Assembly: GCA_003168335.1 (NCBI GenBank)
Contig: PMSM01000010.1
Location: 719,588-783,587 of the forward strand
Length of the DNA: 64,000 nucleotides
Direction: 5' to 3'
DNA from: Blastocatellia bacterium
GTDB lineage: Bacteria > Acidobacteriota > Blastocatellia > Pyrinomonadales > Pyrinomonadaceae
In this document: positions 42,327-51,230 of the stretch, one piece after another
Layout of the letters: every line of letters begins with the position of its first letter
How positions within the stretch are numbered: position 1 is the stretch's first letter
Position numbers and translations under genes: made by a program
The notes under the pieces: generated by a model
Seen by the model: the letters and a program-made list of their open reading frames with translations, nothing else
Told to the model about the DNA's origin: nothing
Databases searched by the model: none

Positions 42327-42914
42327 ATGTCGAGCGGCGCAAAGAAAGCACTGATTATCGTCGATGTGCAGAACGACTTCTGTCCGGGCGGATCTCTGGC
42401 CGTGGCTCATGGAGATGAAGTACTCGCGCCACTAAATAAATTAATGAAAGAGTTCTTGGATCGTGGCGAGCCGGTTTTCAAAACGCGTGACTGGCATCTC
42501 GCAAAGACAAAACATTTCGCAGACTATGGCGGCACCTGGCCGGTCCATTGCGTTCAGAACACGGCCGGCGCCGAGTTCCGCGCCGGCCTGTCTGATGACC
42601 TGCGCGTTACGATCATTTCAAAAGGAATTGATGAAACAGCCGATGGTTACTCGGGGTTCGATGGCACGGACCTCGCGCAGACTTTGCGCGAGCAGGGAGT
42701 CAAAGAAGTTTGGGTGGGCGGACTCGCCACGGACTATTGCGTGAAGCACACCGTGCTTGATGCGCTGCGGCAAGGCTTTACGGTAAAGGCGCTGGCCGAC
42801 GCCATGCGGCCGGTCAACGTGAATCCAAACGACGGCGAGCAGGCGATCGAAGAAATGCGCAACGCCGGTGCCGAGATCGTCGGCAATGCAAAGAAGGCGG
42901 CCGGAATAGCGTAA
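42327..42914 (+). CDS. pncA: Nicotinamidase
   Basis: Hydrolyses nicotinamide to nicotinate for NAD salvage, in the cytoplasm. 195 residues. Catalytic triad visible: D13 in IVDVQNDFCPGGSLAV, K99 in IISKGID, and C138 in GLATDYCVKHTVLDAL. Metal ligands are expected in DWHLAKTKHF (Asp, two His). The partner enzyme PncB, which uses the nicotinate, is encoded about 1 kb downstream on the same strand. In between are a REPIN and two secreted Cys-rich peptide genes on the other strand. Confidence 0.95.
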   Translation: MSSGAKKALIIVDVQNDFCPGGSLAVAHGDEVLAPLNKLMKEFLDRGEPVFKTRDWHLAKTKHFADYGGTWPVHCVQNTAGAEFRAGLSDDLRVTIISKGIDETADGYSGFDGTDLAQTLREQGVKEVWVGGLATDYCVKHTVLDALRQGFTVKALADAMRPVNVNPNDGEQAIEEMRNAGAEIVGNAKKAAGIA

Positions 42915-42945: not shown

Positions 42946-43157
42946 AGAGCGCCAAAGGCGCGTAATGTAAGAGCCTGGGCCATCGGCCCAGGTGCACCAA
43001 GCATGATTTCGTTATTAAGCCGCAACGCGGCGAAATGAAACCTTGCGGCGAAATCAAATTCACCGAAGGCAATTTCGCTCCTTCAGAGCTCAAATCATTC
43101 GGTGCGCCTGACCTGGGGCGTTGCCCCAGGCTCTTACCTTACGCGCCTTTGGCGCTT
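42946..43157. repeat. 212-bp REPIN related to the ends of the IS200-like element
   Basis: Two inverted REP units: 42946-42993 and 43111-43157. Each has a GCGCC-AAA-GGCGC hairpin, a GTAAGAGCCTGGG linker and a second CCTGGG/CCCAGG hairpin. The same unit caps the transposase at 50565-50616 and 51178-51230. The interior holds AAGCCGC-AACG-CGGCGAAAT, which resembles the start of the 32046 repeat. It fills the gap after pncA; 42915-43248 holds no gene. Confidence 0.88.
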
Positions 43158-43248: not shown

Positions 43249-43488
43249 CTAACGACAGCGACGCTTGCATTCATCCTTAGAACGTTTGGCTGCGTCTTCA
43301 CAACGATGTCGTTGTCGTTTGTAAGGTATGGCTTTGCAGACATCCTTCCGCAAGCGATAACGGTCATTGCACCTGTCTTTGCACCTGTTGCCCCCTCCCG
43401 CGGCAGAAGCTGAGCCTCCCCACACTCCCACGCAAAGTAACGCCAAAACCAGCGCGCGCGAAACAACGCCACGCTTCGACTTCATCAT
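43249..43488 (-). CDS. Secreted cysteine-rich basic peptide, CX3C type (copy 1)
   Basis: 79 residues: Sec signal (about 8-28, ASA cleavage) and a mature part of about 50 residues with six cysteines spaced C-x3-C-x10-C-x11-C-x10-C-x3-C, full of Arg, Lys and Asp. The spacing is symmetric about its centre, which fits an antiparallel helical hairpin closed by three disulfides (pairing first-last, second-fifth, third-fourth is inference). Good ribosome site AAGGAG before ATG 43488. The paralogue lies 45 nt upstream; together they form a small operon. No known family recognised. Confidence 0.75.
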   Translation of the reverse strand: MMKSKRGVVSRALVLALLCVGVWGGSASAAGGGNRCKDRCNDRYRLRKDVCKAIPYKRQRHRCEDAAKRSKDECKRRCR

Positions 43489-43533
43489 GGTGCTCCTTTC
43501 ATTTTGCGAAATTGGGGAGAGATGCTCAGGTAA

Positions 43534-43767
43534 TCACCGGCACCGGCGTTTGCAGTCGTCGCGCTCGCGCTTCGCTCTGTCCTCGCAACGGCGCTTTTCT
43601 CTTCTCGTATTCTTGCATTCGTCCATGCGCTGGTGGTAGACATCGTTACAACGATCCTTACACCGATTGCCAGGAACAGCAGCTGACGCCGGACTCAAGG
43701 TGACAAACGTGCTCAAGCAAAACAACAGTGCCACACTGAATCGCAGAAAAACATTCGTTCGTTTCAT
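43534..43767 (-). CDS. Secreted cysteine-rich basic peptide, CX3C type (copy 2)
   Basis: 77 residues, paralogue of the gene at 43249. Signal peptide (about 10-28, ending ASA), then six cysteines spaced C-x3-C-x10-C-x9-C-x10-C-x3-C; only the central loop differs in length. Shared runs NRCKDRCND and CKRRCR show a recent tandem duplication. AAAGGAG lies upstream of ATG 43767. An envelope structural, metal-binding or antimicrobial role are all possible; nothing in the sequence decides. Confidence 0.75.
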   Translation of the reverse strand: MKRTNVFLRFSVALLFCLSTFVTLSPASAAVPGNRCKDRCNDVYHQRMDECKNTRREKRRCEDRAKRERDDCKRRCR

Positions 43768-43972
43768 TCGTTAACTCCTTTCGAGTTAGCTGACCAGATC
43801 ACGCGCGAACTTAGGTGCGCTGAGATCGATTACTGTCGATCCCGAGGCCGCGATCGACAAGTGTCCAGAGGGTACGGGCTTAGGATACTACTGAACTGAC
43901 GCTCAATCAAAAGGGGCCCCCAGTCCAGGGGTTCTGTGCGGCACAACCTCACGTGATATCATTTCCGCCGGA

Positions 43973-45430
43973 ATGGGCACGCTGAATATCGATCGCTATC
44001 ACGCCGCGATGGGTGACGCGTCTTACAAGGACGTCACCCGCGTTCATGGCAAGCCCCTTAGCGAAACGACCGCCACCTTTTATGTGACCCAGCGAAAACT
44101 TCCCTTCGCCCCGGTGCTGGGTCACGAGCGTTTAATCCGCCTGCTGGTCGATAGTCAAATCGATCGACCGCGTCTGCGTTTTCTCGAGCAGGATCGCGGT
44201 GGACTGCAACGCTTTGCGAAAGCGATCGAAGACATCCAGTTTGCCGGGAGCATTCGCACGGTGCGACCCGGCACGATCATGTTTCCGCAGCAACCCGTTG
44301 CCGATATCACCGGAAAGTTCGGCCTCACCCAGGCGCAAGAGATCAAATTTGAACACGCCTTTGATTTGCCGATGACGACCGCCAGCGTCGCGATGCAATT
44401 TCGAATGGCCGCGGGTGATCGGTGGCTGTCTGATTTTTCGCTCCGGCGCAACGGCGACATCGAACGCGCGGTGGACATTGCGACCTATGCGTTCATCGGC
44501 GGGTTCAACGACACCTCGAACATGGAAGCCGCGCATCGTCTGGACATTCCCGCGGTCGGCACCGAAGCGCATTACTGGCAACAGGCTTATCTCGAATATC
44601 TCTATGAACCTGAGATCGAACCGCGGACGGGACAACCGAAGCATTTCGAGCAGGTCGCTTTCGAGCGCTGGCTGGATGCGAATCCACACGGCACGACGTT
44701 GTTGCTCGACACCATCGACGTTTACTCGGGCGCAGTCCACGCCACGATGGCCGCTACTTCAAATGAAGCTCGGCGCAAAGCCTTCAAAGGCTTCCGGGTC
44801 GACTCAGGTGATCTGGCCGAACTGGGCAAGTGGTGCCTGCGCTTTTTTGAAGCGAACGGCTTGCACGGGCTGCGGCCAAATCTAACCGGCGATTTGGATG
44901 TGGACAAGGTAAAGCAGATCGTCGCAGAGTTTCCCGAAGCGGCCGGGTTTGGCATCGGCACCAAACTCTCAAGCGAAGTTAAGAGCGTTGCCGGCGTAAT
45001 CTTCAAAGCGTGCATGATCAATGGCCGCCCGACGCTGAAAGCTTCCAATTCGTTGGATAAGACGACCCTGCCGGGATGCATGCAAGTCTTTCGCGGTGTC
45101 GATGCCGCGGGCAAATACATCGCGGACGTTACCGGTCTCGAAGATGAAGCGGTCGCAATCCCCGGCGCCGCCAGCGTTGAGCGTTTGCTACAACCATTCT
45201 GGGAAAACGGCCAGCACGAGGCGATTCCCTCAATCGAAAAACAGAAAGCCATTGTTGCCGATCAGATGAGACGCTTCCACGATCTGCACAACTATCCGTG
45301 CACGCTAAGCGATGGTTTGACGAAGCTGCGTGACGATCTAACGGAAAGGATGCAAGCGGACAACTCGGGTTGGGAAAAAGTTCTGAAGCTACCGGAAGAA
45401 GTACCGGAGCAACTGATGCCAACTGAATAG
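43973..45430 (+). CDS. pncB: Nicotinate phosphoribosyltransferase
   Basis: Makes nicotinate mononucleotide from nicotinate and PRPP, feeding NAD synthesis. 485 residues. Seen: N-terminal MGTLNIDRYHAAMGDASYKDVTRVHGK, FSLRRNGDIERAVDIATYAFIGGFNDTSNMEAA with the conserved R-R substrate region, GTEAHYWQQAY and the phosphate-binding FRVDSGDLAELGKW and GFGIGTKLSS. These fit the bacterial NAPRTase type rather than nicotinamide phosphoribosyltransferase. Downstream is a lipoprotein 12 nt away, likely cotranscribed. Confidence 0.93.
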   Translation: MGTLNIDRYHAAMGDASYKDVTRVHGKPLSETTATFYVTQRKLPFAPVLGHERLIRLLVDSQIDRPRLRFLEQDRGGLQRFAKAIEDIQFAGSIRTVRPGTIMFPQQPVADITGKFGLTQAQEIKFEHAFDLPMTTASVAMQFRMAAGDRWLSDFSLRRNGDIERAVDIATYAFIGGFNDTSNMEAAHRLDIPAVGTEAHYWQQAYLEYLYEPEIEPRTGQPKHFEQVAFERWLDANPHGTTLLLDTIDVYSGAVHATMAATSNEARRKAFKGFRVDSGDLAELGKWCLRFFEANGLHGLRPNLTGDLDVDKVKQIVAEFPEAAGFGIGTKLSSEVKSVAGVIFKACMINGRPTLKASNSLDKTTLPGCMQVFRGVDAAGKYIADVTGLEDEAVAIPGAASVERLLQPFWENGQHEAIPSIEKQKAIVADQMRRFHDLHNYPCTLSDGLTKLRDDLTERMQADNSGWEKVLKLPEEVPEQLMPTE

Positions 45431-50564: not shown

Positions 50565-51230
50565 ATCCTAAGCGCCAAAGGCGCGGAATGTAAAAGCCTG
50601 GGGCAACGCCCCAGGTTAGCGGCCTCCTTAGAATCCGAAAGCGCTGAAGGCGCGAAATAATCTGAGAGGAAAAGACTCCCATGGCCCAATCTTTATCGTC
50701 CATCCTGATCCATCTGGTCTTCAGCACAAAGAATCGCGAGTCATTCATAACGCCGGCAATCGAAACGGAATTACATCCGTACATGGCCAAGATCTTTTGT
50801 GAACTGAAGTCGCCGTCGCTCGCGATTGACGGCACAAACGATCATCTGCACATCCTGTTTTCTTTGGGACGAGTAATCAAGGTCGCCGACTTGGTTGAAG
50901 AAGTTAAGACAGCATCATCCAAGTGGATCAAAACAAAAGGACGTGAGTTCAGAAACTTTCATTGGCAGAAGGGCTATGGAGCGTTCTCGATTGGTCAATC
51001 AAACGTGACCACGCTGAAACGTTACATTCGCAATCAGAAACAACATCACCAACGTGTCACGTTTCAGGATGAGTATCGCGAATTCCTCAAGGCCTACGAA
51101 ATTGACTACGACGAACGATATGTTTGGGATTAGACCATTCCGCGCCTTCAGCGCTAGGTTATTCTAACTTGGCGCCCACCTGGGGCGTTGCCCCAGGCTT
51201 TCACATTTCGCGCCCTTGGCGCTTTAGGAT
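50565..51230 (+). mobile_element. IS200/RAYT-type element bounded by inverted REP ends
   Basis: The left end 50565-50616 and right end 51178-51230 are near-identical inverted sequences of 52-53 bp, each with two hairpins (GCGCC/GGCGC and CCTGGGGC/GCCCCAGG). A second pair of smaller hairpins (GCGCT-GAA-GGCGC at 50641-50653; inverse at 51141-51154) flanks the transposase gene. REP-bounded Y1 transposases are called RAYTs and are usually single-copy and domesticated. No target duplication is expected for this class. Confidence 0.85.
50681..51133 (+). CDS. tnpA: IS200/IS605-family Y1 (REP-associated) transposase
   Basis: 150 residues, intact. HUH nuclease motif H55-L-H57 in DGTNDHLHILFSLGR and the catalytic tyrosine Y115 in TLKRYIRNQKQHHQ; both are present, so it should cut and join single-stranded hairpin DNA. 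N-terminal IHLVFSTKNRESFI and C-terminal HWQKGYGAFSIGQSN are typical of the IS200 TnpA group. Start at ATG 50681 after GAGAGGAAAAG. No TnpB/IscB gene accompanies it. Confidence 0.93.
   Translation: MAQSLSSILIHLVFSTKNRESFITPAIETELHPYMAKIFCELKSPSLAIDGTNDHLHILFSLGRVIKVADLVEEVKTASSKWIKTKGREFRNFHWQKGYGAFSIGQSNVTTLKRYIRNQKQHHQRVTFQDEYREFLKAYEIDYDERYVWD

Follow-up and report, generated by a model that had tools for sequence, protein, structure and literature searches.

A 64,000-nucleotide stretch of DNA from a Blastocatellia bacterium (hereafter the window) carries two tandem genes, A and B, whose small, very basic products belong to an apparently undescribed family of exported bacterial proteins. 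What the family conserves is a geometry of six cysteines and not a charge, and this geometry points to an antiparallel helical hairpin that may be closed by a nested ladder of three disulfides. Alpha-hairpins stapled by disulfides have been described in plants, in venoms and in mitochondria. If the present reading is right, bacteria would have arrived at this design independently, in an exported family that follows a strict 11-residue ruler and whose rungs come and go in pairs. Such a family would give protein engineers a compact, genetically encoded scaffold, and it would be a clear case of a gene family that is still unannotated in soil bacteria of high abundance.

Tandem six-cysteine genes between pncA and pncB

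Gene A (43249-43488, reverse strand, stop codon at 43249-43251) encodes a precursor of 79 residues, SASAAGGGNRCKDRCNDRYRLRKDVCKAIPYKRQRHRCEDAAKRSKDECKRRCR, and gene B (43534-43767, reverse strand, stop codon at 43534-43536) encodes one of 77 residues, PASAAVPGNRCKDRCNDVYHQRMDECKNTRREKRRCEDRAKRERDDCKRRCR. B lies upstream of A on the same strand with 45 nt between them, and the two proteins are 55% identical. The ribosome-binding site AAAGGAG is found 5 to 14 nt 5′ of both start codons (43493-43499 for A and 43775-43781 for B, reverse strand). No match to a sigma-70-like promoter was found in the A/B region, the consensus being uninformative for Acidobacteriota. Both leaders open with basic residues and run through a hydrophobic segment into a cleavage region of small residues, beyond which comes the six-cysteine segment. 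By inspection, the signal peptides were assigned to residues 1-30 of A (43399-43488, reverse strand, cleavage probably near SASAA) and of B (43678-43767, reverse strand, cleavage probably near PASAA), which leaves putative mature hairpins of residues 31-79 in A (43252-43398, reverse strand) and 31-77 in B (43537-43677, reverse strand). No lipobox was seen ahead of the first mature cysteine of either protein. Both proteins are probably exported, as judged from the leader by eye and from its conservation in homologues.

The initial annotation had described 43249-43767 as encoding tandem secreted peptides with the pattern C-x3-C-x10-C-x(9 or 11)-C-x10-C-x3-C. The open reading frames, strand and leaders were all found as it described them, and the central spacing is 11 in A (3-10-11-10-3) and 9 in B (3-10-9-10-3). 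It had also named pncA and pncB, read from the other strand, as the genes on either side of the pair, and Pfam and NCBIfam identified both neighbours, neither of which belongs to the hairpin family. One is a pncA-like nicotinamidase gene (42327-42914, forward strand; PF00857, and NF008623 at 173.8 bits, just short of its cut-off of 174), and the other is a pncB-like nicotinate phosphoribosyltransferase gene (43973-45430, forward strand; PF04095, and TIGR01513 with a score below the cut-off), which is divergent from gene B.

When the whole genome was searched with the six-codon cysteine pattern, only three family genes and one CTG-repeat-rich region (contig C12) matched; the third family copy lies at G000:C14:959139-959369 on the reverse strand. 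Given this rarity and the presence of homologues with identical spacing in other species (E 1e-17 to 1e-28 by profile search), the pattern of A and B is not due to chance. A class-wide codon-pattern search, dominated by CTG repeats and with a comparable control, served as a cross-check only.

Starting from A and B, homologues were sought in three rounds, first among 60 relatives, then with a 15-row profile across the class (162 genomes), and then across the phylum (396 genomes). The profile search in Acidobacteriota that the annotation had proposed thus returned six-cysteine homologues with the same spacing throughout, 20 of which were tabulated, nearly all within Blastocatellia, the class of the window. 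The spacing is 3-10-n-10-3 in all 20 sequences, with n of 9, 10 or 11, so that the central turn is indeed the sole variable spacing; a hydrophobic leader is present in all 20, and a recognisable ribosome-binding site in 19. Within the genus, six of the seven members analysed carry the gene, and the exception is a genome that is 79% complete. Elsewhere, six-cysteine homologues occur in genera g9, g29 and g3 of the same taxonomic family, in family f2 of the same class, and in one genome of the same phylum outside the class (G334). A profile scan of contigs with A alone gave one locus, in an acidobacterial 'gp4' metagenome genome, which fits the class. An alanine seven residues before C5 is near-invariant in the family, and Tyr, Phe or His usually stands at the mirror position, four residues past C2.

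Searches of Pfam, NCBIfam, PHROGs and PDB sequences with A and B gave nothing significant, which agrees with the annotator's failure to recognise a described family. No description of such bacterial hairpins was found in the literature, a weak form of evidence, and no plasmid, phage or viral relatives of A or B were found when these were looked for. Membership of a known family, or relatives without a signal peptide or the spacing, had been named as grounds for rejecting the proposal, and neither was encountered. The claim that the peptides are extremely basic stood in part. The net charge is about +12 for A and about +8 for B, lysine and arginine make up 39-40% of the mature residues, and the mature surface, as far as sequence tells, is rich in Arg and Lys and poor in hydrophobic residues. 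This basic character holds within the genus but not across the family, in which the mature net charge ranges from +12 to -8 (+3 in G008 and -8 in G334).

Three further arrangements were observed among the loci collected. L137 (G133:C191, 5458-5920, reverse strand) encodes a protein of 154 residues with a Lys/His-rich repeated linker (ALKTHQRxxR) followed by a C-terminal six-cysteine hairpin domain. L070 and L075 (in G092 and G091) have the variant spacing 2-10-n-10-4, with the outer cysteines off by one residue on each side. L072 (G090:C104) encodes an exported protein of 136 residues with many cysteines and several C-x10-C units, which resembles a tandem array of such helical units.

Predicted fold and the 11-residue register

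The helical hairpin that the initial annotation had expected from the mirror-symmetric spacing was returned by AlphaFold2 for both proteins. Gene A, with a 15-row alignment, was modelled as an antiparallel hairpin with helices at 35-52 and 57-78 and a mature pLDDT of about 95, and gene B, from the single sequence, with helices at 33-49 and 55-74 and a mature pLDDT of about 90. As a predicted architecture, the antiparallel helical hairpin is therefore well supported for A and B.

The AlphaFold2 models leave out oxidation, and the pairing of the cysteines was approached through geometry. The proposed nested pairs in A are C36-C78, C40-C74 and C51-C63, each with a residue sum of 114, and equal sums are what an antiparallel hairpin requires. 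In idealised helices with 11/3 residues per turn all three nested pairs can close at the same time, at Cb-Cb 3.8 A, and with 3.6 residues per turn they stay within 0.6 A of 3.8 A. Three other pairings that were tried fitted less well, in two cases with a shortfall of over 10 A; this model is a check of geometric consistency and not a structure. The genome encodes a VKOR oxidase, which makes an oxidising periplasm plausible.

A second line of evidence came from an exported two-cysteine family, reading C-x10-A-x10-A-x10-C, that the six-cysteine profile found within the class, mostly in other genera of the same taxonomic family (L065, L066, L067, L069, L071, L073, L162-L164, L166 and L167). In the reverse direction, the two-cysteine profile retrieved two six-cysteine proteins at E 0.0015 and 0.0076, and comparison of the two profiles gave a colinear alignment with a probability of 91 and E 1.1e-6. 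C2 and C5 align on the two cysteines, and C3 and C4 mostly on alanines. C1 with C6, and C3 with C4, are thus jointly absent, as fits partners in nested disulfides. The two cysteines are exactly 33 or 55 residues apart (3 x 11 or 5 x 11), the longer distance being found in L168, L171 and L174 of G044 and G052; the 55-residue form is the 33-residue form with one apparent extra 11-residue block in each arm. The paired loss of cysteines and the 11-residue register both support a nested ladder, and from these together with the geometry we infer the pairs C1-C6, C2-C5 and C3-C4, in line with the three-disulfide staple first suggested. Matches of the two-cysteine family to haemagglutinin HA2 (E 0.16 and up) were dismissed as chance helical matches.

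One locus of G334, L080, has the six-cysteine core with two outer cysteines. Separately, L081, L082, L084 and L085 (in G439, G362, G204 and G473; family f12 type) encode exported, acidic proteins with a long eight-cysteine palindrome and SPSAP-like tails; the palindrome reads 3-10-17-12-17-10-3 in three of the four, and the fourth differs slightly in its central spacings. Their homology to the six-cysteine family is an unproven lead, as hhalign covered only 20 columns with a probability of 21. We see about an even chance that A and B belong to a hendecad-hairpin superfamily of exported bacterial proteins in which cysteine rungs and 11-residue blocks were gained and lost symmetrically on both arms, comprising the two-cysteine forms at 33 and 55 residues, the six-cysteine form, the eight-cysteine form of G334 and possibly the 3-10-17-12-17-10-3 proteins.

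Locus history and selection

Six members of the genus, and G034 as well, carry the gene or gene pair in the gap that separates pncA from pncB, on the strand opposite to these two genes. In six genomes of other genera (G007, G011, G015, G017, G019 and G020), pncA is the direct neighbour of pncB on the same strand, with a distance of about 90 to 715 nt and no hairpin between them. The simplest reading is that the hairpin gene was inserted, apparently in an ancestor of the carrier lineages, between a formerly adjacent pncA and pncB. In G014, G136 and G133 the hairpin lies in another neighbourhood, common to these three. Within a genus the gene is therefore passed on vertically, and between genera it has changed its place.

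Comparison of A from G001 with its counterpart in G006 gave a dN of 0.87 for the signal peptide, as against 0.09 for the mature part. Omega was 0.09 and 0.13 in the two pairs with measurable dS and 0.50 in the third-copy pair; the genes are short, and most other dS values were saturated. The mature part looks to be under purifying selection. The tree, built on 47 columns, with one well-supported branch and used only loosely, hints with weak support that A, B and the third copy may be old subtypes.

The window also contains three matches to Acido-Lenti-1 (RF01687), a candidate RNA in the list of PMC2864571, at 42948-42993 (reverse strand), 43112-43156 (forward strand) and 50571-50615 (reverse strand). 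This element has 136 matches in the genome and none in 14 control genomes, and it behaves as an interspersed repeat. Neighbouring matches less than 300 nt apart form 21 pairs on contigs C1, C8, C9 and C14, every one of them inverted (-/+) and mostly 158-196 nt apart, with no other orientation, and the pairs look like a REPIN- or MITE-like doublet.

Possible roles and comparison with known hairpins

We propose that B and A would be exported through Sec as miniproteins of about 47 residues and would fold as straight antiparallel alpha-hairpins, with the cysteines along a single face of either helix, following an 11-residue (hendecad) register, and at equal heights from the turn. In an oxidising periplasm the ladder C1-C6, C2-C5 and C3-C4 could then form and give a small rigid rod whose exterior would be free to vary, with a coat of Arg and Lys in this genus. 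Such a rod may bind polyanionic polymers such as lipopolysaccharide, exopolysaccharide or extracellular nucleic acid, either at the producer's own envelope or outside, and the hairpin would be a vertically inherited component and not a fast-evolving weapon. A rigid exported scaffold that binds polyanions at the envelope or outside seems to us the most likely job, held tentatively at somewhat less than an even chance; what the data show is a conserved, apparently translated gene family with a leader and a constant cysteine geometry, the scaffold role is inferred, and the target is a guess from composition. With its dense Arg and Lys and its scarcity of hydrophobic residues, the surface suits the binding of polyanions better than insertion into membranes. 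Given that G008 and G334 are not strongly basic, charge cannot be the common function of the family, and the acidic homologue suggests that the scaffold serves more than one purpose.

The main rival, which we consider unlikely, is an antimicrobial, bacteriocin-like role in the manner of alpha-hairpinins, in which cationic stapled hairpins would bind competitors and then enter or permeabilise them. A and B are small, cationic, exported and duplicated in tandem, some plant hairpins with palindromic cysteines are antimicrobials (PMC11591084), and the hairpin of walnut Jug r 2, the tightest structural row, superposes closely (0.8 A over 38 residues, Z 4.9, below the level of kinship for helical pairs). 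On the other hand, surface hydrophobic residues are few, near-neutral and acidic homologues exist, the mature part is under apparent purifying selection, and the location is fixed within genera. In the genus the flanking genes are pncA and pncB. Among the few neighbours scanned against families, nothing that resembles an immunity or exporter gene was seen, nor any such gene common to the other loci. Conservation, fixed location and the lack of obvious immunity-like neighbours together argue against an arms-race toxin.

It is improbable that the hairpins are proteinase inhibitors acting, like some alpha-hairpinins, through a basic turn or a site on a helix. The turn of gene A is basic and the general fold is that of trypsin-inhibiting plant hairpinins (PMC11591084), but the turn differs between subtypes in length (9-11) and sequence and has no conserved common P1-like residue. 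Improbable, too, is a metal or thiol protein with the facing cysteines left reduced, which would hold Cu(I) or a different soft metal between the two helices in the manner of helical copper storage proteins. Facing cysteine pairs at equal heights would suit two-coordinate thiolate sites; however, the producing cell has a VKOR oxidase and appears to export the proteins, no His or Met is conserved, A and B match no copper-storage or other metal family in Pfam or NCBIfam, and the two-cysteine homologues retain one pair. Finally, an accessory of NAD salvage tied functionally to pncA and pncB is very improbable, since the shared slot and orientation in the six genus members and G034, and the divergence of gene B from pncB, are sufficiently explained by inherited position, six other genera of the taxonomic family have pncA and pncB side by side and no hairpin there, homologues elsewhere have unrelated neighbours, and a protein that leaves the cytoplasm could not act directly on enzymes inside it.

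It counts against the reading we favour that comparison of the A and B models with PDB structures gave closest rows below significance. The best PDB rows for profiles A2 and A4, namely tick cystatins (E 0.47), PDSW (E 0.95) and Jug r 2 (E 5.5), were taken as noise or analogy, and the other Foldseek and VIA-align rows, beyond plant hairpinins, are generic helical pairs. TIGR04453 (Lepto_8Cys), like A and B, describes a small bacterial cysteine-rich protein, and neither A nor B matched it, while the homologue in G008 reached 12.1 bits against a cut-off of 34. The nemertean neurotoxin B-IV (1vib) and related helical-hairpin toxins share a basic, disulfide-linked helical hairpin with A and B. B-IV, however, is an animal venom protein with four disulfides, and although it was the top Foldseek row for the gene B model, its E of 5.2 is not significant.

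Closest in architecture are the mitochondrial CHCH proteins and the plant alpha-hairpinins. CHCH proteins, which include the complex I subunit PDSW/NDUFB10, are antiparallel helical hairpins with nested interhelix disulfides, as proposed for A and B. They differ in being mitochondrial and not exported bacterial proteins, and in having two rungs instead of the proposed three, whereas A and B have x10 spacings and an outer x3; neither two CX9C motifs nor a Pfam CHCH match was found in A or B. For the twin CX9C proteins, nested disulfides within a helical hairpin are described in PMC10653836. Palindromic-cysteine hairpins are also known in plants, where alpha-hairpinins have either four cysteines (CX3CX4-20CX3C) or six (CX3CX3CX4-20CX3CX3C, e.g., nigellin-1.1), the latter also palindromic (PMC11591084). 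Like A and B, they are small, exported, antiparallel helix-loop-helix proteins (for A and B, as predicted by AlphaFold2) with CX3C at both ends. Their two helices are held by nested disulfides, an arrangement that geometry and paired loss support indirectly for A and B. In contrast, they have x3 and not x10 between the second and third cysteines, A and B have longer arms, and the 3-10-(9-11)-10-3 spacing departs from the published core motif; alpha-hairpinins are known from plants, and their sequence similarity to A and B is not significant, as the Jug r 2 value indicates. Judged by their motifs, A and B fall in neither the alpha-hairpinins nor the CHCH proteins, and yet they appear to be built like a stapled alpha-hairpin.
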